Assembly (NCBI RefSeq): GCF_900636965.1
Contig: NZ_LR134331.1
Span: forward strand, 62,001 to 126,000
Length of the DNA stretch: 64,000 nt
Reading direction: 5' to 3'
From: Lacticaseibacillus rhamnosus
Lineage (GTDB): Bacteria > Bacillota > Bacilli > Lactobacillales > Lactobacillaceae
Part shown: piece by piece, positions 27,503 to 58,840 of the stretch
Position numbering within the stretch: position 1 is the first letter of the stretch
How the letters are laid out: the number at the start of each line of letters is the position of its first letter
The notes under the pieces: model-generated
The model's input: the letters and a program-made list of their open reading frames with translations, nothing else
The model's database searches: none
What the model was told of the DNA's origin: nothing
Position numbers and translations under genes: made by a program

Positions 27503-27730
27503 ATGACAAAATTAGTTTATCAATTAGATGGTTTAACCTGCCCGAGCTGCCTACAGAAAATCGAAGGGGCACTAGGCCAACAAGCCGGCGTCAAAACCGT
27601 CAAAGCCTTATTTAACAGCAGCAAGGTCAAAGCCCAGATTGATCCAGCCGTGACCAATGCCGATGCGTTGAAAAAAACCATTACGGACTTGGGCTACACC
27701 GTTGTGAACGTTCGCAGTCAAGAAGCATAG
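27503..27730 (+). CDS. Small HMA-domain metal-binding protein (CopZ-like)
   Basis: A 75-residue single heavy-metal-associated domain. QLDGLTCPSCLQKIEGAL carries the GLTCxxC metal-binding motif (usual form GMTCxxC), and the beta-alpha-beta-beta-alpha-beta length is right. AAAGGATC precedes the start. Lying directly behind the P-type ATPase that lacks this domain, it probably acts as its soluble metallochaperone or as the missing domain in trans. The stop codon abuts the repeat element at 27730. Confidence 0.85.
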   Translation: MTKLVYQLDGLTCPSCLQKIEGALGQQAGVKTVKALFNSSKVKAQIDPAVTNADALKKTITDLGYTVVNVRSQEA

Positions 27731-27846
27731 AGCGTGAGCAGGAGCGCTTAGCAATCGGAGTGTAAGCGGCCTTGAACGTGATGACCGAGCTATGACCATT
27801 GCGCGAAAGGTCCTTATGTGCAGGTTGCTGCGACATCGAACACAAT
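27730..27846 (+). repeat. Casei-group intergenic hairpin repeat, copy A
   Basis: An approximately 117-bp element beginning GAGCGTGAGCAGGAGCGC at the stop codon of the HMA gene. It contains GGAGTGTAAGCGGCC, a central inverted repeat, and TCCTTATGTGCAGG. The outer stem GCAATC/GGTTGC and the inner CGTGATG/CATTGCG pair. The same layout recurs at 54775, 54897 and 58623. Confidence 0.8.
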
Positions 27847-27849
27847 TTT

Positions 27850-27921
27850 AAGCCGAGTGTGATCAGGGCTTCATACATCCAAGACCTTTACACAGGCTTC
27901 TAGCGCGGCAAACGCATTTTC
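27850..27921 (+). repeat. Degenerate second copy of the hairpin repeat (A')
   Basis: CCTTTACACAGGCTTCTAGC followed by GCGGCAAACGCATT matches the right arm of the full element; the left part keeps GAGTGTGATCAGGGC-like remnants. It stands directly behind copy A, making a tandem pair. Confidence 0.5.
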
Positions 27922-27933
27922 AAGGAGGAAATT

Positions 27934-28518
27934 ATGAGCATGAGCATAACACCAGGCATGCACACTATTGACGAAGAAACAGTAAAAGCCCGTCAAGCAG
28001 CGGCAGCTAAACAAGTCGACCATGATCATCATGTACCGACAGCTGGGGCGATGAGCGGACATGTACTAGCAAATTTAGCAGTCTTGCAACGTAAACTGGC
28101 CCAATTTTCCCAAACGTTGAGTGGACCAAGCAGTGACGGGGATCGCGAATTGTTAACGCAATTGGCAACACAAGCGCAGCAGCATCTGACGGTGTTAGTG
28201 GCAGACTTAGCGGCGCAAGGAGAAGATTTTCCCACGACAACCGCGGAGTTTAGCGAGTACACGATGTTGCAAGAAGATCCCGCGTTTCGTTTTTGGACCA
28301 ATGATATGAAACTGGATGCTGTGGTTAATGATCTGGATACTTGCCAGCTGTTCGTCAGTCGGGCGATTCCGCTAGCCAATAAAGAGAACAAGGCAGTGTT
28401 GGCAGCGGATATGTTACAATTGCAGCGCTGGCATGAGCAAAGTATCCTGCACTTGCAAACGCGTCTCGGTCGTGAGGTGACGGCGGGGCGGACCTTGCTT
28501 GAAGAGGACGATGACTGA
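27934..28518 (+). CDS. Dps/ferritin-like protein
   Basis: A 194-residue, mostly helical protein. The segment VDHDHHVPTAGAMSGHVLAN followed by LAVLQRKLAQFSQTLSG and the later FSEYTMLQEDPAFRFW resemble the Dps-like proteins of lactobacilli, though I do not see the full canonical ferroxidase residues. Dps-type proteins bind DNA and store iron under oxidative or metal stress. AAGGAGG precedes the start. It lies in an apparent metal-homeostasis cluster with a P-type ATPase, an HMA protein and a Crp/Fnr regulator, which supports the call. Confidence 0.6.
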   Translation: MSMSITPGMHTIDEETVKARQAAAAKQVDHDHHVPTAGAMSGHVLANLAVLQRKLAQFSQTLSGPSSDGDRELLTQLATQAQQHLTVLVADLAAQGEDFPTTTAEFSEYTMLQEDPAFRFWTNDMKLDAVVNDLDTCQLFVSRAIPLANKENKAVLAADMLQLQRWHEQSILHLQTRLGREVTAGRTLLEEDDD

Positions 28519-28570
28519 GCAACATTAAACGATCGATTGACGAGAGAGCCTGTCTGTAAGGGGGATAAAA

Positions 28571-29230
28571 ATGGCGCATAGTTGTACGGCGGTCGTACCG
28601 TTATTTAAAAATCTAACTGATGAAGCCCGCACTGCGATTGATGCGTTGACCCACGAGCATCAGGTGCAAAAAGGAACGGTTCTGATCAGTCCTAACACTG
28701 CTGCTCATTTGTTAGTGGTTGCACAGGGAAAACTCAAAACTTATCAATTGGCGACAAATGGTAAAGAACAATTACTGCGCGTTGACGGCCTCGGCGATTA
28801 TGAAGGGGAAGCCGGCTTGTTGAATATTGCTAATCCGAATGTCTATACCGAAGCGCTGACGACCGCCACTGTTTGCACCATTAGCGCTGCCGATTTTCAA
28901 CAGTTACTCATGCAACAACCACAAATCAGCTTGCAATTACTCACAGAAAACGCCCGTAAAATGCAGGCATTGGAAAAGCAAGCGGGCTATCTCGGCAACG
29001 ATTCCATCAATGTACGCTTAACTCACTACCTACTGGATTTGCGCACTGCCGCTGGAAAAGACACAGTGACGGTACCGATGGCATGGACGCAGCTAGCCGA
29101 TTATCTCGGCACAACCCCAGAAACGGTTTCGCGCACGTTAAAACGGTTAGCTGATGAAAAATTGATTCAGCGAACTGGGAAGCAAGTGACGATTTTGAAT
29201 GCTGAGGATATGGAAGATTTTGTTTGGTAA
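28571..29230 (+). CDS. Crp/Fnr-family transcriptional regulator
   Basis: A 219-residue regulator with an N-terminal cyclic-nucleotide-binding-like beta-barrel (about 12-120) and a C-terminal winged helix containing TQLADYLGTTPETVSRTLKR (about 173-192), the Crp helix-turn-helix. The N terminus has one Cys (MAHSC), not the four-Cys cluster of classical FNR. AAGGGGG precedes the ATG. Its position suggests it controls the metal cluster and may respond to redox or metal state; this is inference. Confidence 0.9.
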   Translation: MAHSCTAVVPLFKNLTDEARTAIDALTHEHQVQKGTVLISPNTAAHLLVVAQGKLKTYQLATNGKEQLLRVDGLGDYEGEAGLLNIANPNVYTEALTTATVCTISAADFQQLLMQQPQISLQLLTENARKMQALEKQAGYLGNDSINVRLTHYLLDLRTAAGKDTVTVPMAWTQLADYLGTTPETVSRTLKRLADEKLIQRTGKQVTILNAEDMEDFVW

Positions 29231-29265
29231 TTTAAAAGTCTTTAGCCGAATAATAGTGTCAAAAC

Positions 29266-29298
29266 AAAGGATCGCAACTGTGAAAGCTGCGATCCTTT
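29266..29298. terminator. Intrinsic terminator, bidirectional
   Basis: AAAGGATCGCA pairs perfectly with TGCGATCCTTT around a 11-nt loop, with A/T runs on both sides, between the convergent Crp gene and the small membrane-protein gene. Confidence 0.85.
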
Positions 29299-29308
29299 AT
29301 TGTTGTTA

Positions 29309-29572
29309 TCAGTCATGACTAGTCATGTGTTTTTTCATGCCGAAATAATAGGCACCAACGGCTATCATTAAACCCAAAGTGAAGGCGGAAAAATATTTTT
29401 GGCTACTTGGCAGGAAATACCAAGCAAAAATTGCTAAGAGTCCACCTGTGGTCACATAGAGATACAGGAAGCTGCGGACTGCTTTTAAATTAGAAGGCTT
29501 CTTTACGAGAAAATAGAGGAAAAAAGCCGAAGTTGCAATGCCGAAAATTATCGAAGCGATGTGTAATAACAT
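29309..29572 (-). CDS. Small membrane protein, unknown
   Basis: An 87-residue protein with three predicted helices (MLLHIASIIFGIATSAFFLY at the start; SFLYLYVTTGGLLAIFAWYF; FSAFTLGLMIAVGAYYFGM) and a short basic/His tail. ATG 29572 follows GAAAGGTAGG. No family is recognised. It stands alone behind the CPBP protease gene. Confidence 0.65.
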   Translation of the reverse strand: MLLHIASIIFGIATSAFFLYFLVKKPSNLKAVRSFLYLYVTTGGLLAIFAWYFLPSSQKYFSAFTLGLMIAVGAYYFGMKKHMTSHD

Positions 29573-29650
29573 GTTTGGGCCTACCTTTCGATCGGGTGTT
29601 GCTGTAATCTCACAGAACAATCAAATATTGAAAATAACCGTTAAACGGTA

Positions 29651-30532
29651 CTAGTTCGCCGATAAAACCGGATGCGTGCGTCGTTTTTGCCAGAAGATAA
29701 GGATAATCCCCAGTAAGACCACCAGCAATATATGGACAATATTTGACGCCGCACTAGCTTCAAGTCCAAAAACGCTGCCGGTCAGTGACTGCGATGTCGT
29801 TGTCGGGAGGGACTCGAGGACGAACTTTTCACCAGATAGCCCGGAAACGGTTGTGCCAAAGATGGGACCTTCCGCGAAATTCCATATGGCGTGAAAGGCA
29901 CCGCACAGCCAGATATTGCCTGTCAGCAAGCGAAATTGTGACATTGCAATGGCAAAGAAAAACAAGCCGGTGGCGGCGGAAAAATTATAGCCGGGATTGG
30001 CAAGATGCAAAAGCGTGAAAAAGATGGCGTTCAACAAAACCGCCAGCCCGACACGATTTTGCTTAAGCCAGTAGCCCATTATATATCCCCGACAAAGCAA
30101 TTCCTCGAACATTGATTGAATCGCATAGCCGAAGAAGAAAAGCACAAGCCACAGCAAATTTGGCCACTGAAAAGTCGCCAGCACATGGTAACCACCAAGC
30201 AGTGCGATGATGCCCCAGATAAGGCTGAACATGAGCAGGCCAAAAAGTAAGCCTAAAGCATAGTCTCTAACGGCATTTTGACGGGAAAAAGGCAGCAATG
30301 TACGATCACTGCGATAATAGATGGCCATGCCGATAATGCCGATAGCTTCAGCGTATAAAAAGAGCAGGTTCAAAGACATCGGGATGTTGGTTTCATCTAT
30401 GTCGATGTCGAACAGACCGATCAAAAAAGGAATCAGCTGTGATGACAATGACCAAGCAAGTGCAATGCCATAAACGATTAGGATAGGTCCTAATAGCTTT
30501 GAAAATTTATGTAGTTGTTTAATTGGATTCAC
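29651..30532 (-). CDS. CPBP-family intramembrane metalloprotease
   Basis: A 293-residue integral membrane protein with about eight helices. The Abi/CAAX protease motifs are present: FEELLCRGYIMGYWL (EExxxR) near residue 163, TLLHLANPGYNF and GAFHAIWNFAEG with the two His. In Gram-positive bacteria such proteins often act in bacteriocin self-immunity or in processing of membrane peptides. The start is a GTG at 30532 with a poorly placed AGAGG site, so the exact N terminus is uncertain. Confidence 0.82.
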   Translation of the reverse strand: MNPIKQLHKFSKLLGPILIVYGIALAWSLSSQLIPFLIGLFDIDIDETNIPMSLNLLFLYAEAIGIIGMAIYYRSDRTLLPFSRQNAVRDYALGLLFGLLMFSLIWGIIALLGGYHVLATFQWPNLLWLVLFFFGYAIQSMFEELLCRGYIMGYWLKQNRVGLAVLLNAIFFTLLHLANPGYNFSAATGLFFFAIAMSQFRLLTGNIWLCGAFHAIWNFAEGPIFGTTVSGLSGEKFVLESLPTTTSQSLTGSVFGLEASAASNIVHILLVVLLGIILIFWQKRRTHPVLSAN

Positions 30533-30722
30533 CTCTGAATAGAATTTGAATAGAGAAGATAGCTTAACAACAAAAGAATATTTTTAGGGTATCCTTAATT
30601 TTTTGCGTAGTCAAGCGATCCAAACCGAGTTACCGGTGAACGCGTTATAAGCACAGGCGGTTCATCTTACTTGAAATAAGTATCACCAACATTCGGAATG
30701 CTGGTACTAGTACCCAAATGTG

Positions 30723-30736
30723 CGAAAACGCTTTTA
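30723..30736 (+). promoter_or_regulatory. cre-like site upstream of PTS operon
   Basis: CGAAAACGCTTTTA matches the CcpA cre consensus TGWAANCGNTNWCA at 12 of 14 positions and lies 61 nt upstream of the PTS gene, which suits catabolite control. Confidence 0.6.
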
Positions 30737-30796
30737 TTACCCTTGCTATTCCGTTAGTCTTCATATTGAAAATAAATAGATAAGGGGTCCAGCAAT

Positions 30797-32290
30797 ATGG
30801 AGAAGAAGATTGTTGCCGTGACGGCTTGTGCAGCGGGGATTGCGCATACGTATATGGCTGCGGAATCACTGGAGCAAGCGGCGAAGAAAATGGGCTATGA
30901 GATCAAAGTCGAAACCAATGGGGCAATCGGTGCTGAGAACGTGTTGACGAAGCAAGATATTGAGCAGGCAGACATGGTCATTGTCGCCTCGGATATTAAA
31001 ATTGATCCGATTCGCTTTACCGGTAAGCGGCTTTTCGTTACCAAATCAAACCAAGCGATTGAAGATTCGGAGGCATTGATCAATCAGGCGTTTGAAGAAG
31101 CCAAAATTTTTGGAAAAAAAGGTGCGAAGGTTGGCAAGATTCAGGTAGGTAACGATAAAGATAAGGTCAACTTTTTCACGCATATTATGAGCGGCATTTC
31201 ATACATGGTGCCCATGGTGATTGCAGCCGGGTTGCTTTTGACGATTGCTAATCTGTACGCCTTTCAAAGAGACGATTTAGGCCGAATTGTTAAGTGGGGC
31301 TTTGACAATAAAACGCAAATGGGATTCTTGATGGCCAAGTTGTTCTATGTGGGGCAAATCGGCTTTAAGTTGATGATTCCGTTGTTTGCCGGGTTTGTCG
31401 CGAATTCTATTGCTGACAAACCAGCGATTGCCCCGGCGATGATTGGCGCTTATTTGGTCAATGATCCCGAGTTTCTGAATACGAAGGCGGGCGGCGGTTT
31501 TATTGGCGCCATCATTGTTGCCTTTATTGTAGGTTACATGGTGAAGGGCTTGAAAAAAGTGAAATGGCCAAAACTGCTGGTGCCGATTGTGCCAATCATG
31601 ATCATTCCGTTTATCGCCACCGCGGTCATTATGTTGATTGTTCTTTATGTCATCGGGAACCCGATCGCGGTTGGCATGGATGCGATGTATAAAGGTTTGA
31701 CGGATCTCAATAACAACTATTCCGGAGCGCCGATTTTGATTGGCGCTATCTGCGGGGCAATGATCGGGTTTGATTTAGGTGGACCGATCAATAAAACGGC
31801 TTTGGTCTTTGGAACCGCGATTTTCACGGATACGTTGACCAAGTATGGGATTAACGGGGCCAATTTTGTTCCTGGAACCGCGACCCAAGCAGCAATTTCC
31901 GTTGCGCCACTGGGAGTTTGGCTGGCCACCATCTTATTCAAAAAGAAATTCACCAAGGATGAAAAAATCGCCGCCAGTGCTGCTTTTGGGATGGGAATTG
32001 TCGGTGTCACTGAAGGCGCAATCCCGTTTGTCGCGGCCGATCCAGTCAGAATGATCTTTTCTAACGTGGTTGGTTCAGCGGTTGCCGGTGGTCTAGTAGC
32101 TGCGACAGGGTGTAAATTTTACGGCGGTATCGGCTCGCCACTAGGAACTTTTATTGGTTATATTGAACAGCCGCTACCGTTTATTACCTGGATTTTATGT
32201 GTCTGTGCAGGAATCCTGACCGCCGCACTGTTAATCGGCTTCACCCGCAAACAAACAGTGGCAGGGCTCGCTGTTGAACCCGAAAAGTAA
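30797..32290 (+). CDS. PTS fructose-family EIIBC component
   Basis: A 497-residue PTS protein. The EIIB domain (1-105) has the phospho-accepting Cys in TACAAGIAHTYMA (C11). The EIIC domain (about 125-490) has ten hydrophobic segments and the family signature GGPINKTALVFG. This fructose/mannosylglycerate-type permease phosphorylates its sugar during import. AAGGGG precedes the start. The partner EIIA and a GH38 alpha-mannosidase follow, so the cargo is probably a mannose-containing disaccharide or glycoside, as in the MngA/MngB pair of enteric bacteria. Confidence 0.9.
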   Translation: MEKKIVAVTACAAGIAHTYMAAESLEQAAKKMGYEIKVETNGAIGAENVLTKQDIEQADMVIVASDIKIDPIRFTGKRLFVTKSNQAIEDSEALINQAFEEAKIFGKKGAKVGKIQVGNDKDKVNFFTHIMSGISYMVPMVIAAGLLLTIANLYAFQRDDLGRIVKWGFDNKTQMGFLMAKLFYVGQIGFKLMIPLFAGFVANSIADKPAIAPAMIGAYLVNDPEFLNTKAGGGFIGAIIVAFIVGYMVKGLKKVKWPKLLVPIVPIMIIPFIATAVIMLIVLYVIGNPIAVGMDAMYKGLTDLNNNYSGAPILIGAICGAMIGFDLGGPINKTALVFGTAIFTDTLTKYGINGANFVPGTATQAAISVAPLGVWLATILFKKKFTKDEKIAASAAFGMGIVGVTEGAIPFVAADPVRMIFSNVVGSAVAGGLVAATGCKFYGGIGSPLGTFIGYIEQPLPFITWILCVCAGILTAALLIGFTRKQTVAGLAVEPEK

Positions 32291-32332
32291 TGCTAACCGT
32301 TGAAACCGACAAATGAACAGGTAGGTAGAAAA

Positions 32333-32791
32333 GTGAATAAAGAAGTTTTTAATCGTCACCATATTTTATTTGATGAAACAGCAACAACCCAGGAAGAAGC
32401 CTTCAAAAGCCTCGCCCAATTTGCTTATAATGCAGGCTTTGTCTCCGATGAAACAGCCTATTTTGAGGGGTTAAAAGCTCGTGAAAAGGAAGCAACCACC
32501 GGCTTTAAAGATCATATCGCCATTCCTCATTGCAAAAGCAGCGTCAATAAGAAACCGGGGTTATTCTTAATCAAATTTAAGCAGGCAATTCCGTGGCAAG
32601 CATTAGATCAAAAGCCAGTAAAGGTGGCTTTTGGGTTGACCATTCCGGAACAAGGGGCCACCGAACATTTGAAGTTGCTCAGCCTGATAGCCAGAAAGTT
32701 GATTGACCCAGACTTTAGAGAAGGAGTCCTGACACAGGATGATCCAGAAAAGCTGACAGCAATCATTGATCAAATCGAATTTAGGGGTTAA
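32333..32791 (+). CDS. PTS fructose/mannitol-family EIIA component
   Basis: A 152-residue EIIA domain. The active-site His is in HIAIPHCKSSV, the standard PTS_EIIA_2 motif. The GTG at 32333 follows AGGTAGG; an upstream in-frame TTG at 32300 lacks a site. It passes phosphate from HPr to the EIIBC protein encoded just upstream. Confidence 0.88.
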   Translation: MNKEVFNRHHILFDETATTQEEAFKSLAQFAYNAGFVSDETAYFEGLKAREKEATTGFKDHIAIPHCKSSVNKKPGLFLIKFKQAIPWQALDQKPVKVAFGLTIPEQGATEHLKLLSLIARKLIDPDFREGVLTQDDPEKLTAIIDQIEFRG

Positions 32792-32798
32792 TGCAGAA

Positions 32799-35420
32799 GT
32801 GAAAAGAAAAGTTCATGTCATCCATCACACCCACTGGGACTTTGAATGGTATTTCACTGCCAACGAGTCACTGGTGCAGCTGGCTTATCATTTGGATGAA
32901 GTCATGCAAGCCTTAGAGCAACAGCAAATCAGTTACTATTTGCTGGATGGGCAGATGAGTATTCTTGATGATTATTTAACCAGTTTTCCAGAACAAAAAG
33001 AGCGGCTAATGAAGTTAGTCAAAAGCGGCAAACTCGCTATTGGCCCTTGGTATACGCAAACCGATGAATTAATCGTTCGCGGTGAATCGATTGTCAGAAA
33101 TCTGAACCTGGGCATGACGTTAGCAGAATCATTAGGCGGCTGCATGAATGTTGGCTATTTGCCGGATTCTTTTGGGCAAAGTAAAGACATGCCCAAAATC
33201 TACAATGGGGTTGGCATTCAGCAAGCAGTCTTTTGGCGCGGGGTGCCTGACGATGTAACAACGCAGCGTGAATTTTACTGGCAGGCAGAGGATGGTTCCC
33301 AAGTCTTAACTGCGAATATCAAAGACGGCTATTTTGTGGGCGTTGGTCTGATTTATTCTGATGATGCGCCTGCCCTCGTCAAAACGATTGCGGCCGGTGC
33401 TACGGGTGCGGATTTACTGTTACCGGTCGGCGGCGATCAACGGTACATTGATTTCAATCTGCGCGATCGCATGAACCTGTATCGCCAAGTGCTTCCTGAT
33501 ACAGAGCTAGAAGAAAGCAATTACCCCGGGTTTTTTGAGGCAATTAAAGAAAACGAGCTACCAACAATCACCGGCGAATTTATTTCTAGTGCAGTCTCCA
33601 AGATCCATCGTTCCATTTACTCTTCTCGTTACGATCATAAATACTTAAATGATAAAGTGGAACGGCGCATGATTTATCAAGTGGAGCCGCTGATGGTGAT
33701 GGCAGAAAAATGCGGAATCCCTTATAAGCAAGGTTTGCTAGATCGAATCTGGAAATTGCTGAATAAAAACCACGCACATGACTCTGCCGGCGGGTGTAAT
33801 AGCGACAAAACGAATCTGATCATCACCGCGCGCTATGTTGAAGCAGATCAGCTTTCTTACTCATTAGTGGATTACCTGACCAGAAAAATTTCCGAATCGC
33901 GAGTTCAGGTATCCGAAGGCGAATTGGTGATTTTTAATACCTTGCCGTGGACGACTAAAAAGGTCATAAAATGTGAGGTATCGACTCACTTTGCCGCGAT
34001 CGCACTTGAAAAAGACGGCGTGACGGTTCCGGTCGAATGTTTACAAACACGCAAAGAATCGAATCGTTCCATTCGCCGAAAAGAAGTGGCGGATGCACCA
34101 GCCAACGCTTATTTCGTTCATGAATTATTGATTGAAGCAGAAGTGCCGCCGCTTAGTTTTGTAGCGTATCAAGTGGTTGAAAAAACTCGCATATCCGCTA
34201 ATAAACTGCTAGCTGAAACCGCGGCTGTTTCAATTGAAAATGAGGCGTATCAGGTGACCTTTGAGGCAGGCGAACTATCCTTAATCGACCGCAAACGCAA
34301 AGCCGCTTATCAGAACTTTTTGGCGTTTGAAGATAGCGGGGATGAAGGCGATACCTATGATTATTCGCCGCCTTATGTGGATGATCGGTATCGGCTCAAT
34401 TTGAATGGTGCTACTTGTCACACGATCCGCAACCAACTAATGGAAAAACTCATTATGACCGGTGAGTGGCAAGTTGCCAAAGACCTAAAGGAACGCCAAG
34501 CTAAAAAGCGAACCCAGGCAATCCCTTATGAATTGACGATTGAACTATTAAAAGGCAGTCGCCAGCTTCAATTTCATTTGGAGCTCGACAATCGTGCGTG
34601 TGATCACCGGATGCGGGTGTTGATTGAGACACCGAATCAGAATGCCTTTTCATACTCGGACACGCCGTTTGGTACGGTGAAGCGAGCGGTTGAGGATCCT
34701 CATATTGACGATTGGCAACAACTGGGCTGGCGGGAAGAACCAACGGCAATTTTCCCAATGCTGACGTATGTAAACAGTCATGATGCGACAACCAGCTGGA
34801 CAGTTTTTAGCAAAGGGATCAAAGAGTATCAATTCATCGGGGAAAAGTTTCAAACGATAGCCTTGACGCTGTTTCGCTCGGTCGGTTATCTCGGCCGGCC
34901 GGATCTGCTAAGACGGCCAGGGGTGGCTTCAGGCAATGAGTTTAAAGCCATTCCGACACCAGATAGTCAGTTGCAAAAGAAAATGCGCTTCAAATTCGCA
35001 CTGCAGTTAGATCACGATTTTCAGCCAGCAAGCTTGGCAAAAGATTATCTCGACTATGCGATCAGCAACCCGCATTACCAGATCCAAGACCTGAATCGCT
35101 TTACCACAACGCTTAAGTATTTTGTCTCGAATCCCTTAGACCATCAAGTGCCAACACCAAAAGGAATGACGCTTGACAGTGAGACGCTGGTTTTCAGCTC
35201 ATTACGCAAAAGTAACGACGAACCGGGCTTTGATATTCGGGTTTATAATCCGGATCTTAACCGGGAAGTGGACGGCGGCAGTATCAAAGGCTTGCGTAAT
35301 GTGCGGTATACGTTTGTAGATCTAAGGGGTCATGCTGTCGCTGAAACCCAAGAAGATGATACGATTCTCCTAGGCACCTTTAAACCGGGTGAAATTAAAA
35401 CGGTCCATATCGTTGAATGA
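32799..35420 (+). CDS. GH38 alpha-mannosidase (MngB-like)
   Basis: An 873-residue GH38 enzyme. The metal-binding motif HTHWDFEW (H12, D14) and GYLPDSFGQS with the nucleophile D123 are visible, and HAHDSAGG near residue 331 supplies the later metal ligand. A beta-sandwich-rich C-terminal region follows. There is no signal peptide. The start is GTG 32799, 7 nt after the EIIA stop. Next to a PTS importer it probably hydrolyses a phosphorylated mannosyl compound, releasing mannose 6-phosphate, like mannosylglycerate hydrolase MngB; a mannobiose-type substrate from glycans is equally possible. Confidence 0.9.
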   Translation: MKRKVHVIHHTHWDFEWYFTANESLVQLAYHLDEVMQALEQQQISYYLLDGQMSILDDYLTSFPEQKERLMKLVKSGKLAIGPWYTQTDELIVRGESIVRNLNLGMTLAESLGGCMNVGYLPDSFGQSKDMPKIYNGVGIQQAVFWRGVPDDVTTQREFYWQAEDGSQVLTANIKDGYFVGVGLIYSDDAPALVKTIAAGATGADLLLPVGGDQRYIDFNLRDRMNLYRQVLPDTELEESNYPGFFEAIKENELPTITGEFISSAVSKIHRSIYSSRYDHKYLNDKVERRMIYQVEPLMVMAEKCGIPYKQGLLDRIWKLLNKNHAHDSAGGCNSDKTNLIITARYVEADQLSYSLVDYLTRKISESRVQVSEGELVIFNTLPWTTKKVIKCEVSTHFAAIALEKDGVTVPVECLQTRKESNRSIRRKEVADAPANAYFVHELLIEAEVPPLSFVAYQVVEKTRISANKLLAETAAVSIENEAYQVTFEAGELSLIDRKRKAAYQNFLAFEDSGDEGDTYDYSPPYVDDRYRLNLNGATCHTIRNQLMEKLIMTGEWQVAKDLKERQAKKRTQAIPYELTIELLKGSRQLQFHLELDNRACDHRMRVLIETPNQNAFSYSDTPFGTVKRAVEDPHIDDWQQLGWREEPTAIFPMLTYVNSHDATTSWTVFSKGIKEYQFIGEKFQTIALTLFRSVGYLGRPDLLRRPGVASGNEFKAIPTPDSQLQKKMRFKFALQLDHDFQPASLAKDYLDYAISNPHYQIQDLNRFTTTLKYFVSNPLDHQVPTPKGMTLDSETLVFSSLRKSNDEPGFDIRVYNPDLNREVDGGSIKGLRNVRYTFVDLRGHAVAETQEDDTILLGTFKPGEIKTVHIVE

Positions 35421-51742: not shown

Positions 51743-51796
51743 ACAATAGGTACTCCTGATGACTAGGAGATAGGTTGCGCAAGTGGTACCAAAAAA

Positions 51797-51889
51797 GCGC
51801 TGACCAGCCTCTCTAGGCCAAGTCAGCGCGTTCTTTTTGTTTACAGGAAATTTTTCCAAACCCACAACCAAATGATCCGCTGCCTGAAC
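51797..51889 (-). repeat. Duplicated dapB 3' end and terminator
   Basis: The segment 51822-51889 is nearly the same as 53072-53138: GTCAGCGCGTTCTTTTTGT, the dapB stop region, and the codons for VQAADHLVVGLE of DapB. The hairpin GCGCTGAC/GTCAGCGC serves as a terminator here as well. One extra base shifts the frame after Leu-Glu, so this is a remnant and not a gene. Confidence 0.8.
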
Positions 51890-51990
51890 GTGCAATATAG
51901 TCACAACTGATCAAGCCAGTCAAAATGGTGTAACCACTTATCTTGCGAATAGATAACTCGATTCTAAAAGGGGGTTTTGATTCTCGTTAT

Positions 51991-52221
51991 TCATCCCAGA
52001 CGTTCCACTAAAATGCCATTATCGTCGATGCTTTCTTCCATCATTGCTTTACGTAAATCGTAGTCGGAATTACTCTCGAAGATACTATGCTTAACGGACA
52101 ACAGACTGATGACACCATTTTCGGCAATGATAGGCTAATATTCAACATTTCTACCAATATTAAATGACGCGGAAACTGTAATCATAGTTGAATTTCCGTG
52201 ACGGCGCTTTTTAACAGTCAT
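51991..52221 (-). pseudogene. MazE/PemI (AbrB-fold) antitoxin remnant with internal stop
   Basis: Reading from ATG 52221: MTVKKRRHGNSTMITVSASF, then NIGRNVEY, a TAG at 52135-52137 (codon 29), and PIIAENGVISLLSVKHSIFE to a TGA at 51991. The VKxRxxGNSxxITVxxSF pattern is typical of PemI/MazE-type antitoxins. The frame is kept on both sides of the stop. No toxin gene follows it. It lies in the segment flanked by the dapB duplications. Confidence 0.65.
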
Positions 52222-52360
52222 GTTTATCGTTCTTTCCCATGCCATGACCATCTGTGCAGTTTTTTTGTATCAAGGTGTTAGCCGAATTAAAACATATAGT
52301 TGCTCTTGTAAGTAAGAGCGGTTTGCGCTATTAATACATTAAAAAGGGAGTGGATTGCTT

Positions 52361-52951
52361 ATGACATTAGAAGTTGTTCCTTTTTCATCCGCATCATCCG
52401 AAATTGATGGGTTGAAGATTATTCATGTGAAGATGGTGACGGATGAGCGCGGAACGGTTCGAGAGCTGTTTCGCCAGAGCCAGCATTCGCAAGTGTTAGT
52501 AAACCCTAATATGGCTTGGAAACAGGTCAATTTGACCCGGACTAAGCGCGGGGCTGTTAGAGGGTTGCATGGTGAAGCGATGTCGAAGCTCGTCACGGTT
52601 GCCCATGGAGAAGCATTTGGTGCCTATGTGGATACAAGACGGGACAGTCCTACTTTGGGTTCCGTTGTCACGGTTCGTTTAACGCCCGGTGTGCAGGTTT
52701 TTGTTCCTCAAGGCGTTTGTAATGGGTTTCAGGCGGTTGCCGATGATACGGAATATCTTTACTTCTTCGACAACGAATGGGAAAAGGGGATGAGCGGTGT
52801 GGCACTAACACCTCTGGATCCTGATTTGGGGATTGAGTGGCCGATCGCCATTAAGCCTGATAATTTAGCGCAAATTTCAAAAAAAGATTCCGAGGCGCCT
52901 ACTTTGAAGGAAGTGCTGAAACAACTGGCAGAGACGCGGCCAAAGGAATAA
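52361..52951 (+). CDS. RmlC-like cupin epimerase (dTDP-4-dehydrorhamnose 3,5-epimerase family)
   Basis: A 196-residue cupin. DERGTVRELFR (start of barrel), RGAVRGLHGEAMSKLV with the catalytic His and Lys, and VFVPQGVCNGFQAV follow the RmlC family. AAGGGAG lies 10 nt before ATG 52361. It stands alone, without rmlA, rmlB or rmlD, inside the segment flanked by duplicated dapB ends, so it may have been acquired. Possible roles are cell-wall polysaccharide sugar modification. Confidence 0.8.
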   Translation: MTLEVVPFSSASSEIDGLKIIHVKMVTDERGTVRELFRQSQHSQVLVNPNMAWKQVNLTRTKRGAVRGLHGEAMSKLVTVAHGEAFGAYVDTRRDSPTLGSVVTVRLTPGVQVFVPQGVCNGFQAVADDTEYLYFFDNEWEKGMSGVALTPLDPDLGIEWPIAIKPDNLAQISKKDSEAPTLKEVLKQLAETRPKE

Positions 52952-53041
52952 CTAGCAGGGATAGCGACTGCCAACCCGGGTACATAGTTTATCAAGTGAC
53001 AGGTACAAAATGTGATCCTGAGACGTCTTTTGATAAAACAA

Positions 53042-53082
53042 AACGCGCTGACCCAGCTTTTTTAAAGGTATGTCAGCGCGTT
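53042..53082. terminator. Intrinsic terminator, bidirectional
   Basis: AACGCGCTGAC pairs perfectly with GTCAGCGCGTT, with T runs on both strands. It ends both the epimerase gene and the dapB operon. Confidence 0.85.
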
Positions 53083-53090
53083 CTTTTTGT

Positions 53091-53858
53091 CTACAGGAAA
53101 TTTTCCAACCCCACAACCAAATGATCCGCTGCCTGAACCTTGCGAATGGCAACGGCGACTCCTTGCATGAAGCTTTGGCGATCGAAGGAGTCTTGGCGGA
53201 TGGTGAGGGCTTCACCGGGACCGCCGAAGAGGACTTGTTCGTGGGCGATGTAACCTGGTAAGCGGATGGCGTGGACCGGGACGTCATCAATGCGTTGGCC
53301 ACGGGCGTCGTTGTCGATGGTGGACAAGGGCTTTTGGGTGCGTCCGGCGGCGATTTTGTGCGCAGTGGCGATGGCGGTGCCTGATGGAGCGTCGGCCTTA
53401 TCCTGATGGTGCATTTCGATGATTTCGGCATCAGGGAAGTAGGCGGCGGCTTCCTGTGCGAACTTCATTAAGAGAACCGCGGAAAGGCCGAAGTTTGGGG
53501 CGATTAGACCGCCGAGCTGACGGGCTTGGGCGAGTTCGATTAAGCGGTTTTGATCGGCTTGCGTCATGCCGCTTGTGCCAACGACTGGGTGAATGCCAGC
53601 TTTGATCGCAGCTTCAATGTTGGCAGCGACGGCAGTGGGGTTGGTAAAATCAACCCACACATCGGCAATGTCGGGATTGAGCTGATCATAGCTCGTGAGC
53701 ACTTTTGTATCAGCTGGTAGTCCATATTTTTGGGCATCAGCGGCAGTTGCTTTGGGATCAAAAACGGCACTTAATGCGAAATCTTTTTGTGACTGGACCA
53801 TTTTGACTGTTTTTTGACCCATGGCACCGCGAAAACCGGCGACAAGAACGTGAATCAT
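53091..53858 (-). CDS. dapB: 4-hydroxy-tetrahydrodipicolinate reductase
   Basis: A 255-residue enzyme. HVLVAGFRGAMGQKTVKMVQ is the NAD(P)H-binding start, EMHHQDKADAPSGTA holds the catalytic His-Lys region, and VGTSGM the substrate loop. It reduces the DapA product in lysine and peptidoglycan DAP synthesis. Its start overlaps dapA by 4 nt. The terminal 15 codons are also found as a remnant at 51840-51889. Confidence 0.95.
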   Translation of the reverse strand: MIHVLVAGFRGAMGQKTVKMVQSQKDFALSAVFDPKATAADAQKYGLPADTKVLTSYDQLNPDIADVWVDFTNPTAVAANIEAAIKAGIHPVVGTSGMTQADQNRLIELAQARQLGGLIAPNFGLSAVLLMKFAQEAAAYFPDAEIIEMHHQDKADAPSGTAIATAHKIAAGRTQKPLSTIDNDARGQRIDDVPVHAIRLPGYIAHEQVLFGGPGEALTIRQDSFDRQSFMQGVAVAIRKVQAADHLVVGLENFL

Positions 53859-54760
53859 GCAAGCACCTCCGCTTCAATTGCTGATAGTTCCGAAACCCCT
53901 AATAGATGGGCTAATTCTTGTTGTTGTGCCGCTGTTAATGGCAGTAGCGGTAAACGCGGGCTGCCGACTTTGAATCCCAAAGCATTAAGTGCGGCTTTGG
54001 TAGGCGCTGGGGATGGAAAATGGAATAACGCGGCCATTTTCGGTAACAGTTGCCGTTGTAATGCGGCTACAGTGGTGACGTCACCGCGATCAAGCGCACG
54101 ATACATTTCCCGGATGCTGTGGGCATATAGGTGGGAGGCAACTGAAATAACGCCCATCCCGCCCAGTGTTTTGATCGTCAGCGCTTGAGCATCTTCGCCG
54201 GTCCAGACGTTGAAGGCATCATGTTTGGTTCGGTCGATGATATCGCTGAGTGCTGCCAAACTGCCGCACTGCTTGATCCCTTGAATCATGGGGTTTTGTG
54301 CCAGCGTTGCCACAGTTTCCGGTAACATGTCCACGCCGGTCCGTCCTGGAATGTTGTAAATAATGATCGGTTTTTGCGCACTTGCCGCAACCGTGGTATA
54401 GTGCGCGATCATGCCATTTTGATCCGGTTTGTTGTAATACGGAACCACAACCAAAGTAGCATCAATTCCGGCAATTCCACCGACTTCATGCGTAAAATCA
54501 GTGGTTTCGCGGGTGTTGTTAGACCCCGAATTGGCAATCACGAGTGCGCGCCCGTGAACCATGGCCACAAAACGGGTGTAAAGGGTGATCTTTTCATCAT
54601 GACTCAACGTAGGCCCTTCACCCGTCGTAGCCCCAACCACAAACCCGTCAGTACCTTGATCAATGAGATGATCGACTAACCGTTGCATACTATCATAGTC
54701 AATTTCATCGCGGTCGTTAAACGGTGTCACAATCGCGGTGATTAATTCTGCTCTTTGCAT
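53855..54760 (-). CDS. dapA: 4-hydroxy-tetrahydrodipicolinate synthase
   Basis: A 301-residue TIM barrel. VVGATTGEGPTLSHDEK is the pyruvate-site signature; PYYNKPDQNGMIAHY has the catalytic Tyr, and GIKQC the Schiff-base Lys. It condenses pyruvate and aspartate semialdehyde. The start lies 14 nt from the repeat copy at 54775, so the repeat is inside the transcription unit between it and the deacetylase gene. Confidence 0.95.
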   Translation of the reverse strand: MQRAELITAIVTPFNDRDEIDYDSMQRLVDHLIDQGTDGFVVGATTGEGPTLSHDEKITLYTRFVAMVHGRALVIANSGSNNTRETTDFTHEVGGIAGIDATLVVVPYYNKPDQNGMIAHYTTVAASAQKPIIIYNIPGRTGVDMLPETVATLAQNPMIQGIKQCGSLAALSDIIDRTKHDAFNVWTGEDAQALTIKTLGGMGVISVASHLYAHSIREMYRALDRGDVTTVAALQRQLLPKMAALFHFPSPAPTKAALNALGFKVGSPRLPLLPLTAAQQQELAHLLGVSELSAIEAEVLA

Positions 54761-54774
54761 TTAAAAACCCCCCT

Positions 54775-54890
54775 GAGCGCGAGCCGGCGCGGTTAGAAGT
54801 CGGAGTGTAAGCGGCCTTAAGCGTGATGGCCCGGTCTTGGCCATTGCGCTTAAGGTCCTTATACGCAGACTTCTGCGCCGGGGAGCGCGT
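54775..54890 (+). repeat. Casei-group intergenic hairpin repeat, copy B
   Basis: GAGCGCGAGCCGGCGCGGTT starts the element and GGGAGCGCGTT ends it. Outer stem GAAGTC/GACTTC and inner stem CCTTAAGCGTGATGGCC with GGCCATTGCGCTTAAGG pair, using two G-U pairs in plus-strand RNA. Confidence 0.85.
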
Positions 54891-54896
54891 TAAAGT

Positions 54897-55016
54897 GAGC
54901 GCGAGCCGGCACGATTAGAAGTCGGAGTGTAAGCGGCCTTAGCCGTGATGGTCGGGTTTTGACCATTGCGACCCAGGTCCTTACACGCAGACTTCTGCGC
55001 CAGCGAACGCATTATG
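54897..55016 (+). repeat. Casei-group intergenic hairpin repeat, copy C
   Basis: The second tandem copy, seven bases after copy B, starts GAGCGCGAGCCGGCACG and ends CGAACGCATTATG. The outer stem GAAGTC/GACTTC is kept; the central stem has several base changes (CCGTGATGGTC with GACCATTGCG). Confidence 0.85.
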
Positions 55017-55084
55017 CTGAATCCAACTGGCAAGCCATCACCAAAAAATCCGTGACTGCCCTTGCACACTATCAATCAAGACCC

Positions 55085-56236
55085 TCAAGCCGCTTCCGCC
55101 ATCCGATGCGTCAGAAAATGAATGATAGCCGTCACACCTGGCGCTAGAGCTGCTTCATCTGGTAAAAAGTCAGCGGCGTGCAACTGCGAATCCGGATCAT
55201 TCACGCCTAGCCAAAACATGGTGCCAGGAATTTTGTTTAATAGATAACCAAAGTCCTCACCGGTCATGACTGGATCGGTTGGCACAAAGGTCACGGCTGG
55301 GTCGGCTTGCATGAAATCAATGAAATCTTTTGTCAGGTGCGGATTATTTTCGACGGGATAATAACCGCCTTGATTCAAATCAACTTTGACTTCGCAGTTG
55401 AAACTAGCCGCGATGCCTTGACCGATATCCCGAATTCGCTGTTGCAAGAAATTAATTTGCTTTTGCGTGAAGCCACGCAAGGTGCCTTCTAGATGGGCGC
55501 TGCCGGCAATCACGTTGCGGATGGTTCCGGCGCGCATGAGGCCGAATGTGATCACGGCGCTGTCTGTGGGGCCGACATTGCGAGCGACAACCGTTTGGAT
55601 TTGGCTGATGAAACTGGCCGCTGCGACGATCATATCGTTAGCATTTTGCGGTAACGCTGCATGGCCGCTTTTACCGATTAAATCAACGTTAATCTCAGTG
55701 GTGCCGGCAAAAAGCGTTCCGAGCCGCGTGCTAATCGTACCAGCAGGCAGGTCAGGCCGATCATGCAGGCCATAAAATTCATCAATCTGCCACTCACCGG
55801 TGAAAGCGCCCATGTCATAAGCCAGTTTACCGCCATTCTTGCTTTCTTCAGCCGGCTGGAAGAAGAAAATCAGATGATCCTTTGGCTGATGAACGGCAAA
55901 ATAACTGAGAATGCCAAGTGCCACGGTCATATGCATATCGTGACCACATGCATGCGCAATCCCCAGGTGATGCGAGGCAAACGGCAAACCGGTTGCTTCG
56001 GTGACCGGTAACGCATCCATATCGGCGCGATAACCGATCGTGCGTTGCGGATCGGAGCCAGTGACTTTGACTAGAATGGCGGTTGGCAACTTCGGTAAGG
56101 TGCGGATGGTGAGAAAAGTCTGCGGAAAACTTTGGATGGTTTTGAGCAGGAAAGCGTGGGTTTCTTTTTCCTGCAGCGCTAATTCCGGGATTTGGTGGAG
56201 CTGGCGGCGAATAGCAATGAGTTCGGCTTCCTTCAT
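55085..56236 (-). CDS. N-acetyldiaminopimelate deacetylase
   Basis: A 383-residue M20-family amidohydrolase. Metal ligands are seen in AHACGHDMHMT (HxCGHDxH), PAEESKNGG (Glu pair) and LHDRPDLPAG. In the lysine operon it removes the acetyl group from N-acetyl-LL-DAP (YkuR-type). Its start lies 6 nt from the dapH end. The gene is followed by repeat copies B and C. Confidence 0.92.
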   Translation of the reverse strand: MKEAELIAIRRQLHQIPELALQEKETHAFLLKTIQSFPQTFLTIRTLPKLPTAILVKVTGSDPQRTIGYRADMDALPVTEATGLPFASHHLGIAHACGHDMHMTVALGILSYFAVHQPKDHLIFFFQPAEESKNGGKLAYDMGAFTGEWQIDEFYGLHDRPDLPAGTISTRLGTLFAGTTEINVDLIGKSGHAALPQNANDMIVAAASFISQIQTVVARNVGPTDSAVITFGLMRAGTIRNVIAGSAHLEGTLRGFTQKQINFLQQRIRDIGQGIAASFNCEVKVDLNQGGYYPVENNPHLTKDFIDFMQADPAVTFVPTDPVMTGEDFGYLLNKIPGTMFWLGVNDPDSQLHAADFLPDEAALAPGVTAIIHFLTHRMAEAA

Positions 56237-56242
56237 TAAATG

Positions 56243-56947
56243 TCACAACTTTCTGAGTTCATCAAGCAGCACCGTCTTAGCTTCCGTTTGATCGTTGACT
56301 TTTTTAATCACCTTGGCTGGGACACCGGCGACGACTGTATGGGCAGGAACGTCATTAATGACAACAGCGCCCGCAGCAATGACAGCCCCTTCGCCCACGG
56401 TCACGCCTTCAAGCACAACGGCATTGGCACCGGTCATCACGTGATCACCGATTGTCACTGGCTTAGCTGACGGTGGTTCCACCACGCCAGCAAGCACTGT
56501 GCCCGCGCCGATATGGCAATGTTTGCCGACAATGGCGCGGCCGCCAAGCACGGCCCCCATGTCAATCATGGTTCCGGCACCGATTTCCGCGCCGATGTTA
56601 ATAATCGCGCCCATCATGATCACCGCATTGTCACCAATCAGCACCTGATCGCGAATGATCGCACCAGGCTCGATACGGGCATTGGTTGTTTTGATGTCCA
56701 ATAATGGCACCCCGGTGTTACGACCGGCAGCCTCGACATAGTAATCATCCAGTTTAGCGGTTTTTAAAACGGGCTGAATCTCTGCCCAGTCACCGATGAC
56801 AGTGCCCGTGTGTTTGCCAATAAATGCATGAACACTTTTAGGGAAATGCAAGTCGGCTAATTTCCCTTTGAGATACACTTTGACTGGCGTGGTTTTCTTG
56901 CTGTTTGCGATGGTTGAAATGATTTTTTCGGTATCGAGTTGTGCCAT
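56243..56947 (-). CDS. dapH: Tetrahydrodipicolinate N-acetyltransferase
   Basis: A 234-residue left-handed beta-helix protein. Hexapeptide repeats ([20 protein letters not shown] and [20 protein letters not shown]) fill about 90-200. The N-terminal domain holds the substrate-binding TPVKVYLKG region. It acetylates tetrahydrodipicolinate. The gene lies between lysA and the deacetylase. Confidence 0.95.
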
Positions 56948-56956
56948 GATGGCCTC

Positions 56957-58300
56957 CTATTTTTTTGCGACAGTAGTGGCGGTTGATGTCGGCGCTGATT
57001 GACTTGGGGCGGTGTAGTGCTGATCGTGTTGAATTAAATCGGCGTAAGTTTCACGCGTGACCACTAGCTGTGCTTGGCCATTTTCGACAAAAACAACGGC
57101 TGGACGCGGGTTGCGATTGTAGTTGGACGCCATCGAGTAGCCATATGCGCCAGTGTCGAACACGGCAACCACATCGCCTGGGTGTGTGGCCGGCAGCGGG
57201 GCATCATCAATCAAAATGTCGCCGGATTCGCAATACTTTCCGACTAAATGGACACGTTCTGTGGGCTGGGCAGTCGGGTGATCCGCAACCACAGCAGTGT
57301 ATTGAGCCTGATAAAGGGCAGGGCGGATATTGTCGCCCATGCCGCCATCAACCGCAACGTAAGGCCGCAAGCCCGGGACATCTTTGCGGCTGCCGACCGT
57401 GTACAGACTGTAGCCGGCAGGACCGACAATCGAGCGGCCCGGCTCAATCCAAACGGCAGGCAATGGCCAGTTAAAACCGTGGCTTTGGGTTTTCAAGGTG
57501 GTCACAATCGCCTGCACGAAAGCTTCTGGTGGTAGCGGATCATCCTGCTTGGTATACGCAATCCCAAAGCCGCCGCCGACATTGAGGACTTTAGGAATAA
57601 AGCCGAATTGCTGGTGCCAATGATCAAGGACTGCCAGCAGCTTTTGGGTGACGGCTTCAAACCCGGCGACTTCAAAAATCTGGGAGCCAATGTGGGCGTG
57701 AATACCCAGCAAATTAAGATGATCATCCGCCAGAATACGCTTGGCTGCTTCATCGGCTTGCCCGCTTTCAAGATCAAAGCCAAATTTACTATCGGTTTGG
57801 CCGGTTTGATCATAAGCGTGTGTATGAGCACTAATCCCCGGTGCCACCCGGATCAAGACGTTTTGCTTGCCCACGGCCGCCTTTAGCAACTCGTCAAGCA
57901 GGTCCAACTCGTGAAAATTATCAACGATGATCGTGCCAACCCCGGCGTCTAAAGCTTGTTCCAGTTCGGCTTTGCTTTTGTTGTTACCGTGGAAACTGAC
58001 TTTGTCCATAGGGAAGCCCGCTGCTTGAGCCGTGTATAACTCGCCACCGGAAACAACATCGACATGAATGGCTTCGGCTTTGGCGACCTCGTACATCGCG
58101 ATGGTAGCAAACGCCTTGGAAGCGTAACTAACGGCGTATGCAACCCCCGCAGTTTCAAAAACCTGCTTGAACGCCCGAATCTGATGGCGAATGGCGCCAA
58201 CGTCATAAACATAAAGCGGCGTTTGAAAAGTGTGGACAAGTTGACTGGCAACAACCCCGCCAATCGTTAATTGACCTTCGTGATTTGTGGCAAAATTCAT
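56957..58300 (-). CDS. lysA: Diaminopimelate decarboxylase
   Basis: A 447-residue PLP enzyme. AVSYASKAF carries the PLP Lys, NVGGGFGI the glycine loop, WIEPGRSIVG and GKYCESGDIL the substrate Cys-Glu region. It makes lysine from meso-DAP. GGGAGGATG lies 7 nt before the ATG at 58300. It is the first gene behind the lysine riboswitch. Confidence 0.95.
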   Translation of the reverse strand: MNFATNHEGQLTIGGVVASQLVHTFQTPLYVYDVGAIRHQIRAFKQVFETAGVAYAVSYASKAFATIAMYEVAKAEAIHVDVVSGGELYTAQAAGFPMDKVSFHGNNKSKAELEQALDAGVGTIIVDNFHELDLLDELLKAAVGKQNVLIRVAPGISAHTHAYDQTGQTDSKFGFDLESGQADEAAKRILADDHLNLLGIHAHIGSQIFEVAGFEAVTQKLLAVLDHWHQQFGFIPKVLNVGGGFGIAYTKQDDPLPPEAFVQAIVTTLKTQSHGFNWPLPAVWIEPGRSIVGPAGYSLYTVGSRKDVPGLRPYVAVDGGMGDNIRPALYQAQYTAVVADHPTAQPTERVHLVGKYCESGDILIDDAPLPATHPGDVVAVFDTGAYGYSMASNYNRNPRPAVVFVENGQAQLVVTRETYADLIQHDQHYTAPSQSAPTSTATTVAKK

Positions 58301-58340
58301 TCAGTTCATCCTCCCGAGTGATGGCAGGGCAACGGCAAAC

Positions 58341-58388
58341 GAAAAGGGACCCTTTTGTTTGGCCGCGCGTCAAACAAAAAGATCCCAA
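58341..58388 (-). terminator. Riboswitch-controlled terminator before lysA
   Basis: On the minus strand GGGATC-TTTTTGTTTG pairs with CAAACAAAA-GGGTCCC around a short loop, followed by TTTTCG. It is the expression platform of the lysine riboswitch. Confidence 0.8.
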
Positions 58389-58399
58389 CTTGCAATCTA

Positions 58400-58578
58400 C
58401 TTGAATGATAGCGCCCCGCTTAGATACCTAAGCGACAGTACAGGATTTATTTAACCCTGGCCCAACAGGCTCACCGATCCCGGATCACCCATTTCGGCAA
58501 CCGCCCCTTTCACCGAATGTCACCACGAAGGATCTCGCTCGATTCGGTTAGTCATGTTGGCTGCAACCTCTATCTGTT
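58400..58578 (-). promoter_or_regulatory. Lysine riboswitch (L box)
   Basis: On the minus strand the conserved elements occur in order: GATAGAGGTTGC, GGTGAAAGGGGC, GTTGCCGAAATGGG, and the closing GGGGCGCTATC that pairs with the start. This is the L-box aptamer layout. High lysine should favour the terminator at 58341-58388, reducing lysA-dapH-deacetylase-dapA-dapB expression. Confidence 0.88.
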
Positions 58579-58587
58579 TGACACCAC

Positions 58588-58615
58588 ATTATAATAAAAA
58601 ACGGTACGCGTCAAA
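58588..58615 (-). promoter_or_regulatory. Promoter of the lysA operon
   Basis: On the minus strand TATAAT (58588-58593) is preceded by TTTGACG with 15-16 bp spacing, just upstream of the riboswitch. Confidence 0.75.
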
Positions 58616-58622
58616 TTTTTGT

Positions 58623-58742
58623 GAGCGCGAGCCAGCGCGGTTAGGAGTCGGAGTGTAAGTGGCCTTGGGCGCAATGACCCGGGCTTGGTCATTGCGCCCA
58701 AGGTCCTTACACGCAGACTCCTGCGCTCGGGAGCGCGTTATG
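58623..58742 (+). repeat. Casei-group intergenic hairpin repeat, copy D
   Basis: GAGCGCGAGCCAGCGCGGTT to GGGAGCGCGTTATG. The outer stem GGAGTC/GACTCC and the central stem GGGCGCAATGACC/GGTCATTGCGCCC are fully Watson-Crick. It is the best-preserved copy and lies just upstream of the lysA promoter on the opposite strand. Confidence 0.85.
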
Positions 58743-58751
58743 GGAGTAAAA

Positions 58752-58840
58752 GCGAACTAGTGCCCTTAGACGGTGATGGCCCGCTCTTGGCCATTGCGAC
58801 CAAGGTCCTTACATGCCTGCTCAGCGGAACGCGCGTTATG
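58752..58840 (+). repeat. Degenerate second copy of hairpin repeat (E)
   Basis: This copy lacks most of the left arm but keeps CGGTGATGGCC/GGCCATTGCG, AAGGTCCTTACATGC and GGAACGCGCGTTATGG. It directly follows copy D as the second member of a pair. Confidence 0.7.

Follow-up and report, generated by a model that had tools for sequence, protein, structure and literature searches.

A stretch of 64,000 nucleotides (nt) of the Lacticaseibacillus rhamnosus genome (NZ_LR134331.1, positions 62,001 to 126,000 of the forward strand; here called the window) carries copies of a 119-nt hairpin repeat belonging to a family that is real, abundant, and apparently undescribed. The family is of a known kind, the bacterial intergenic hairpin element, and its unusual traits are an order-wide fold on one strand, polar same-direction arrays whose mates are mostly unrelated, and exchange between the arms and bodies of units. 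On balance, we regard it as probably a non-coding, non-autonomous mobile hairpin of the Lactobacillales that is selected at the DNA level. There are hundreds of copies in this genome, the carriers are food and probiotic bacteria, and Rfam has no family at threshold. Since the repeat lies inside operons and near terminators and ribosome-binding sites, it may affect the expression of many genes; hairpin repeats can also confuse assemblies and small-RNA calls. The one-strand fold together with the polar arrays makes a testable case of folded single-stranded DNA mobility without a known transposase.

Two covariance models were used, R1, built from 30 copies of this genome, and R2, built from an alignment (A4) of 79 copies (78 distinct), mostly from other genera. 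At least 150 strong R1 matches were scored in this genome, all with E values of 2.1e-19 or better, which puts the repeat beyond chance, and a whole-genome BLAST search gave at least 88 matches with 40 of 205 candidates scored. A profile hidden Markov model (HMM), run over the stretches around the R1 places and the window (about 0.56 Mb), returned 273 matches, 258 of them with a score above 30; this sequence held 131 arrays of one to four units (38, 53, 31, and 9 arrays, respectively). Of 301 Lactobacillaceae genomes, 66 (among them this one) had R1 matches at E 0.001, and these matches spanned 20 of 40 genera; at this level, the weakest could be chance hairpins. Of 295 Lactobacillales genomes, 33 had an R2 match at 1e-6; 15 of these genomes were outside the Lactobacillaceae, and 8 of the 15, from three other families, matched at 1e-14 or better. 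The same conserved loops were present at two loci outside the Lactobacillaceae and at one divergent locus within it. In a survey of 398 evenly sampled Bacillota genomes with R2 at 1e-7, made with stricter filters and with the best nine candidates per genome scored, only this genome matched and the other 397 did not. A DNA search of 30 genomes of the genus found copies in 6, which is an underestimate, as the RNA models gave matches in additional congeners.

Plasmid copies were present in 21 records from Lacticaseibacillus, Pediococcus, and Lactiplantibacillus, and the PLSDB table, which is incomplete, listed no feature under the matches. Phage records gave no match, nor did viral contigs in a narrow scan with a short exact pattern, and therefore there was no sign of a phage origin. 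No family of Rfam release 15 reached its gathering score over the window copies, and a relaxed search of six loci gave, at the copies, only matches below gathering. No description of the hairpin family was found in the open-access literature; in the accessible portion of one article (PMC2267715), the only Lactobacillus named is L. johnsonii.

Units start with TGAGCG or AGAGCG and fold into a single long hairpin that is interrupted by three conserved internal loops or bulges. From the outside inward, stem P1 (YGYG) is followed by a 3x3 loop with GAR opposite NGA, P2 by a one-sided NTTA bulge, and P3 by a second 3x3 loop with GGA opposite GCA; P4 (GTAAG/CTTAC) then leads to P5, a variable stem of 19 pairs closed by a short loop. 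The outer arms are imperfect terminal inverted repeats that pair with each other, and the internal loops may contain tandem G-A pairs. Across all 79 rows of A4, 97.3% of 3414 stem cells were paired, and changes on both sides were seen at 39 of the 44 pairs, bearing out the covarying stems claimed in a preliminary description of this stretch. The covariation score was 0.799, compared to 0.205 for shuffles and at most 0.140 for slid controls; A4 was fitted to the model and leans towards structure, a bias that is unlikely to matter, since the size of the effect makes its influence small. Among the stem cells of A4 were 219 G-U and 23 A-C combinations, and because G-U was far above A-C, the plus strand was taken as the folding strand. 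Stability calculations for the 197 full units also favored the plus strand, in 193 of them when RNA parameters were used and in 194 when DNA parameters were used. Within the window, the plus-strand RNA fold was far better than that of shuffled sequence for three copies (z = -8.4 for B1, -5.0 for B2, and -9.8 for C1) and no better than shuffles for copy A (z = -1.0). The conserved plus-strand fold proposed previously was thus supported by covariation and by the excess of G-U over A-C, and the check set beforehand, in which the genome and its relatives were searched with a covariance model and covariation was compared with controls, was strongly passed. Two details of that proposal also held: only in the plus strand does GTGATG/CATTGC pair throughout, and in that strand the copy at 58622 has a Watson-Crick inner stem. 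In other genera (L073, L078, L220, and L226), a CRGCTAGA-like tail often comes after the 3' end, and the unit there may therefore be a few bases longer.

None of the 131 arrays was mixed in orientation. For full units with a full mate, the median identity was 0.832 both to the array mate and to copies elsewhere; the nearest relative was in another array for 102 of 126 such units and was the mate for 24 of 126. Tandem duplication as the main source of the arrays was rejected, given the 102 units nearest to a copy in another array. The arrays were also polar in their fold. By fold energy, a measure free of the HMM, the first unit was more stable than the last in 33 of the 46 arrays in which both were full length. 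In this genome, non-Watson-Crick cells made up 3.6% in first copies (88 units) and 7.1% in later copies (41 units), and the G-U to A-C counts were 56:19 and 46:35, respectively (Fisher P = 0.028), as determined for the 129 of 197 full units that were exactly 119 nt long and with three constitutive wobble pairs omitted. Since first copies kept the wobble bias, it seems to be in the first copy, presumably the newest, that the plus-strand fold is under selection.

Spacers between consecutive full units were 0 to 8 nt long and recurrent (TGG 12 times and TAGAAAG 10 times) rather than unique and of constant length, which ruled out an array of clustered regularly interspaced short palindromic repeats. 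A shorter type of unit (S; 45 candidates) usually measured 101 to 103 nt, started with TGGGCGTAAACCAGAACATAAG or a similar sequence, and followed the previous unit with no spacer. In the 39 candidates that were compared, the nearest relative of the 81-nt body was a full-length (L) unit of another array in 35 cases, with 83% expected if mixed. The 22-nt S arm had a mean pairwise identity of 0.78 compared to 0.79 for the last 36 bases of the same units and, being no more uniform than those bases, was therefore recurrent rather than constant. In the first units of 16 S-containing arrays, 17.8 of 18 outer pairs were formed on average. We infer that S units derive from older L units in which the arrival of a new unit led to exchange or shortening of the 5' arm.

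Two further features of the arrays were noted. Downstream of arrays L089, L096, L098, L100, L104, L108, L145, and L152 was a shared tail such as TAGAACGCAA or TAGAAAG, with similarity that extended a few tens of bases in some; it may represent another small repeat or a unit of greater age. A second subfamily, marked by AGAGCG/GTTT ends and spacers of the CAGC type and including units with AGAGCG...GCGTTT ends (L102:2774-3015 and others), seemed by eye to lie upstream of divergent promoters and not at Shine-Dalgarno (SD) sites.

With respect to genomic position (two of the 131 arrays, with incomplete 5' ends, were omitted), the base before the array was G in 93 of 129 cases and was preceded by an A/T-rich run. 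By simple tests, the 5' end was close behind a terminator T-tract in 41 of 129 arrays and adjoined the complement of an SD sequence in 35, compared to 2 and 10 of 129, respectively, for 3' ends and to 73 and 75 of 2070 random intergenic points. The flanking genes were oriented (-,-) in 49 arrays, (+,+) in 35, (-,+) in 23, and (+,-) in 12, and the other 12 arrays lacked a predicted gene on one side. In 28 of the 131 arrays, more than 40 bases lay within a predicted frame; such frames seem to result from a start of the divergent gene that was called too far upstream. The common direction noted earlier for all copies held within the window and not genome-wide, where 57 plus-strand and 60 minus-strand loci were counted among the 117 listed; by contig halves, these were +28/-36 and +29/-24, with no clear bias (origin not located).

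Comparisons between close relatives revealed copies that differ by gain, loss, exchange, or deletion. At a site in a phosphotransferase system operon, two L. paracasei plasmids (93.8% identical over 8 kb) had near-identical flanks for about 100 bases on either side and different elements; P. inopinatus carried one of these elements, and a plasmid of L. plantarum kept the last 13 bases only. A second plasmid site held two copies and a remnant, one copy, or the remnant alone, and at a third, half of the hairpin was deleted. Between an L. casei-like genome (G005) and L. zeae (G028), the number of units was equal at 7 of 16 comparable sites and different at 9, in a comparison made by eye that omitted the shortest fragments, two zeae arrays located where G005 has no corresponding sequence, and one pair outside the aligned part. 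One apparent empty site directly behind a terminator in G005 was filled in L. zeae, and at two sites the 5' flank was unchanged and a downstream remnant was shared, with the extra units in between. In a shared two-unit array, the bodies were in opposite order, with 79 of 81 and 79 of 79 positions identical to the swapped partner versus 66 of 81 and 64 of 81 in place, and one unit consisted of the arm of one unit joined to the body of the other. At one site in a 60-kb comparison, units were present in three species, and one of these units had the opposite orientation to the rest. In the region of the window, most pieces aligned with L. zeae and L. chiayiensis were about 75 to 81% identical. Deletion derivatives that kept one or both outer ends and had lost most or half of the hairpin were observed at the flanks of L095, L098, L129, and L131, at L212, L215, and L217, and at G005/G028 sites, and are consistent with palindrome instability.

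Under the mobile-hairpin explanation, the plus strand, seen to fold into one long hairpin, would act as single-stranded DNA, and an enzyme or host machinery working in trans would recognize the folded strand and place copies in intergenic DNA. As the polarity of the arrays suggests, new copies would arrive 5' of an existing copy, in the same orientation, beside a terminator, a ribosome-binding site, or an older remnant, and arrays would therefore grow at the 5' end. Downstream copies would lose the fold and then be trimmed or deleted between repeated arms, a step for which the weaker fold of later copies and the deletion derivatives, both observed, are the basis. Some of these changes could be made by the host itself, through recombination or through template switching at the hairpins. 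Action at the level of DNA rather than RNA is indicated by the little promoter room before 76 of 129 arrays and by the lack of a fixed orientation to genes.

The search for a mover covered the domains PF01797 and PF00078. PF01797 (Y1) had no match in this genome or in the copy-rich congeners G005 and G017, was present in the copy-rich congeners L. chiayiensis (G006) and L. zeae, and was absent from 10 of 15 further carriers; 13 of 30 genus genomes have one. The reverse transcriptase domain RVT_1 (PF00078) was not found in this genome, and both domains were absent from 9 of 20 carriers tested, this genome included. A Y1 transposase or a reverse transcriptase as a necessary mover was therefore unsupported; past action of a lost enzyme is possible.

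Several observations weigh against a mobile hairpin as described above. With the two domains searched, no enzyme and no autonomous partner was found. No target-site duplication was recognized at the aligned sites, among which there was only one apparently clean empty site, and at the two sites with extra units, gain is indistinguishable from loss by recombination; many of the copy-number differences can likewise be losses by recombination between repeated arms. Of three shared G005/L. zeae sites that were aligned, two had near-identical units and one had a diverged unit, and turnover is therefore not fast. One tandem duplication was observed between these genomes. The 5' ends of 53 of 129 arrays were near neither a terminator nor an SD site, and the association with such sites may reflect selection against other insertions rather than choice of target. 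As for polarity, the first unit scored above the last in 78 of 93 arrays with the HMM, a count that leans to first units because the HMM was built mainly from the best, mostly first, copies, and the first-versus-later G-U test was modest (P = 0.028). Finally, the minus strands of B1, B2, and C1 also beat shuffles (z = -7.1, -6.9, and -10.2), with less fold energy than the plus strand in B1 and C1; minus strands fold well because palindromes must.

Other explanations were considered. It is unlikely, if credible, that the family is a dispersed structured RNA, transcribed on the plus strand and serving either as small RNAs or as structured untranslated regions, with a role in protein binding or mRNA protection. 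Wobble pairs favored on the plus strand only, conserved internal loops with possible tandem G-A pairs, and conservation across an order all fit such a role, and the accessible portion of one report describes 307 putative small RNAs in L. casei BL23 (PMC8220740). However, the 131 arrays had no fixed orientation to neighboring genes, the wobble bias was lost in later copies, and Rfam had no family at threshold. Moreover, in 76 of 129 arrays the start lies shortly after a terminator or falls at a divergent gene's ribosome-binding site, contact that leaves little space for a promoter. The small-RNA family suggested in the preliminary description was accordingly unsupported by context, and it is less likely than a mobile hairpin. 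We think it quite unlikely that the repeat is kept by the host at the DNA level, as a binding site for a nucleoid, replication, or repair protein or as a recombination site, and is spread by homologous exchange and template switching at hairpins. The 9 of 20 carriers without PF01797 and PF00078 and the near-identical copies kept at two aligned sister-species sites agree with this, and arm/body chimeras and deletions at short repeats fit hairpin-induced template switching; set against these are the patchy distribution (66 of 301 Lactobacillaceae genomes), the absence of a clear strand bias between contig halves, the copies carried by plasmids from three genera, and the sites at which close kin differ in having a copy or none.

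The preliminary description had also suggested a miniature inverted-repeat transposable element (MITE)-like nature, which was supported; terminal inverted repeats are present as the imperfect outer arms. A classical MITE, in which a DDE transposase would act on the double-stranded ends of an insertion sequence shortened by internal deletion, is nevertheless very improbable. Short length, intergenic position, imperfect terminal inverted repeats, and occurrence on both strands are as expected of one, but no target-site duplication was recognized at the aligned sites, no parent insertion sequence was seen, though no systematic search for one was made, and a double-stranded mechanism gives no reason for the excess of G-U over A-C or for the one-sided bulge. 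There is, in addition, a slim chance of gene-free, integron-like shuffling, in which folded plus-strand hairpins would be exchanged as single strands by a site-specific recombinase, with 5' entry and body swap at a fixed arm/body joint. The array with swapped order and its arm/body chimera support it, as do the recurrent short arms on bodies that are nearest to L units of other arrays (35 of 39; 83% expected); the finding that S arms are no more uniform than the last 36 bases makes it slightly less likely.

The hairpin family resembles several known repeat systems in part. In the accessible portion of PMC2817692, repetitive extragenic palindromic (REP) sequences have a GT(A/G)G head, bacterial interspersed mosaic elements (BIMEs) alternate in orientation, and REP-associated tyrosine transposase genes (Pfam01797) are flanked by REPs. 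Like REPs and BIMEs, the hairpins are abundant intergenic imperfect palindromes with compensatory changes and composite clusters; unlike them, they are 119 nt long, start with TGAGCG or AGAGCG, and lie in arrays of one orientation in a genome without PF01797. A REP-type sequence in the strict sense, as had been suggested, was therefore not borne out, there being no GT(A/G)G head, no Y1 transposase in this genome, and no alternation within arrays. Enterobacterial repetitive intergenic consensus (ERIC, or IRU) elements are similar in size to the 119-nt unit. In the accessible portion of PMC10969869, ERIC of enterobacteria has a variable copy number, a likeness to the present family along with intergenic imperfect palindromes, whereas no mention is made there of arm/body chimeras or of unrelated copies arrayed in the same direction; the lineage differs, and the comparison was by description only and not by sequence. 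The same portion describes BOX, RUP, and SPRITE of pneumococcus as structured, intergenic, and bunched together (PMC10969869). Compared with these, again by description only, the present family is one continuous hairpin with an order-wide consensus.

By its one-sided bulge, one-strand fold (indicated by G-U and A-C counts), and same-direction arrays, the family also resembles integron attC sites. These are imperfect hairpins with a one-sided bulge and a strand-specific fold that form same-direction arrays with the newest member first. In contrast to attC sites, the units have no cassette genes between them (spacers of 0 to 8 nt), and their ends lack the attC core sequence, as judged by eye. 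Group IIC introns insert directly behind intrinsic terminators, where hairpin arrays are also found, but the unit is only 119 nt long, no ribozyme was seen, and RVT_1 was not found in this genome.

The window copies and the riboswitch near them are listed in Table 1. Full copies had been placed previously at 27730, 54775, 54897, and 58623, and whole-length R1 matches at 27729, 54774, 54896, and 58622 confirmed all four. The view that each of three loci has two copies applied to one locus (B) and, in modified form, to a second (C), where the partner expected at about 58752 was real and on the plus strand but of a shorter type (58741-58833). It was unproven at the third (A), where the degenerate partner at about 27850 gave only 6.5 bits (E 0.06 in a 126-base search) and is a remnant of outer arms at most.

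Table 1. Hairpin copies and associated RNA feature in the window (window coordinates)
Feature	Position	Strand	Match and type
Copy A	27729..27847	+	R1 79.5 bits, model 1-119; single decayed copy, AGAGCG-type
Claimed partner of copy A	27854..27919	+	R1 6.5 bits, E 0.059 (126-base search); not confirmed
Copy B1	54774..54892	+	R1 142 bits; full-length L type, first of tandem pair
Copy B2	54896..55014	+	R1 115.6 bits; second full-length unit, 3-nt spacer after B1
Lysine riboswitch (RF00168)	58401-58580	-	104 bits; precedes lysine biosynthesis genes
Copy C1	58622..58740	+	R1 135 bits; full-length, inner stem Watson-Crick
Copy C2	58741..58833	+	Short-type (S) unit; nhmmer 42 bits, positions 37-116; R1 24 bits, positions 37-86

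Copies B1 and B2 are 86% identical across 119 nt. Within a run of lysine genes, the pair has an M20 peptidase gene on one side and a dihydrodipicolinate synthase gene on the other, is antisense to them, and abuts the start of the latter (dapA-like), so that B1 is directly upstream of a gene on the other strand; at the site of B1, one copy is also present in L. zeae and L. chiayiensis. Copy C1 is upstream of the lysine riboswitch and lysine genes, both on the other strand, and C2 follows it with no spacer, retaining the inner hairpin behind a short 5' arm (TGGGAGTAAAAG...). Thus, one array is just upstream of a lysine riboswitch and another is among lysine genes. Copy A overlaps the stop codon of a heavy-metal-associated-domain (CopZ-like) gene, and the next gene starts at 27934; the 194-residue protein encoded directly 3' of this copy (window 27934-28515, plus strand) had no Pfam match at 0.001. 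In another genus, a T-box-like match (L082:1106-1373, plus strand; 87.5 bits versus a gathering score of 93) was observed near a copy.

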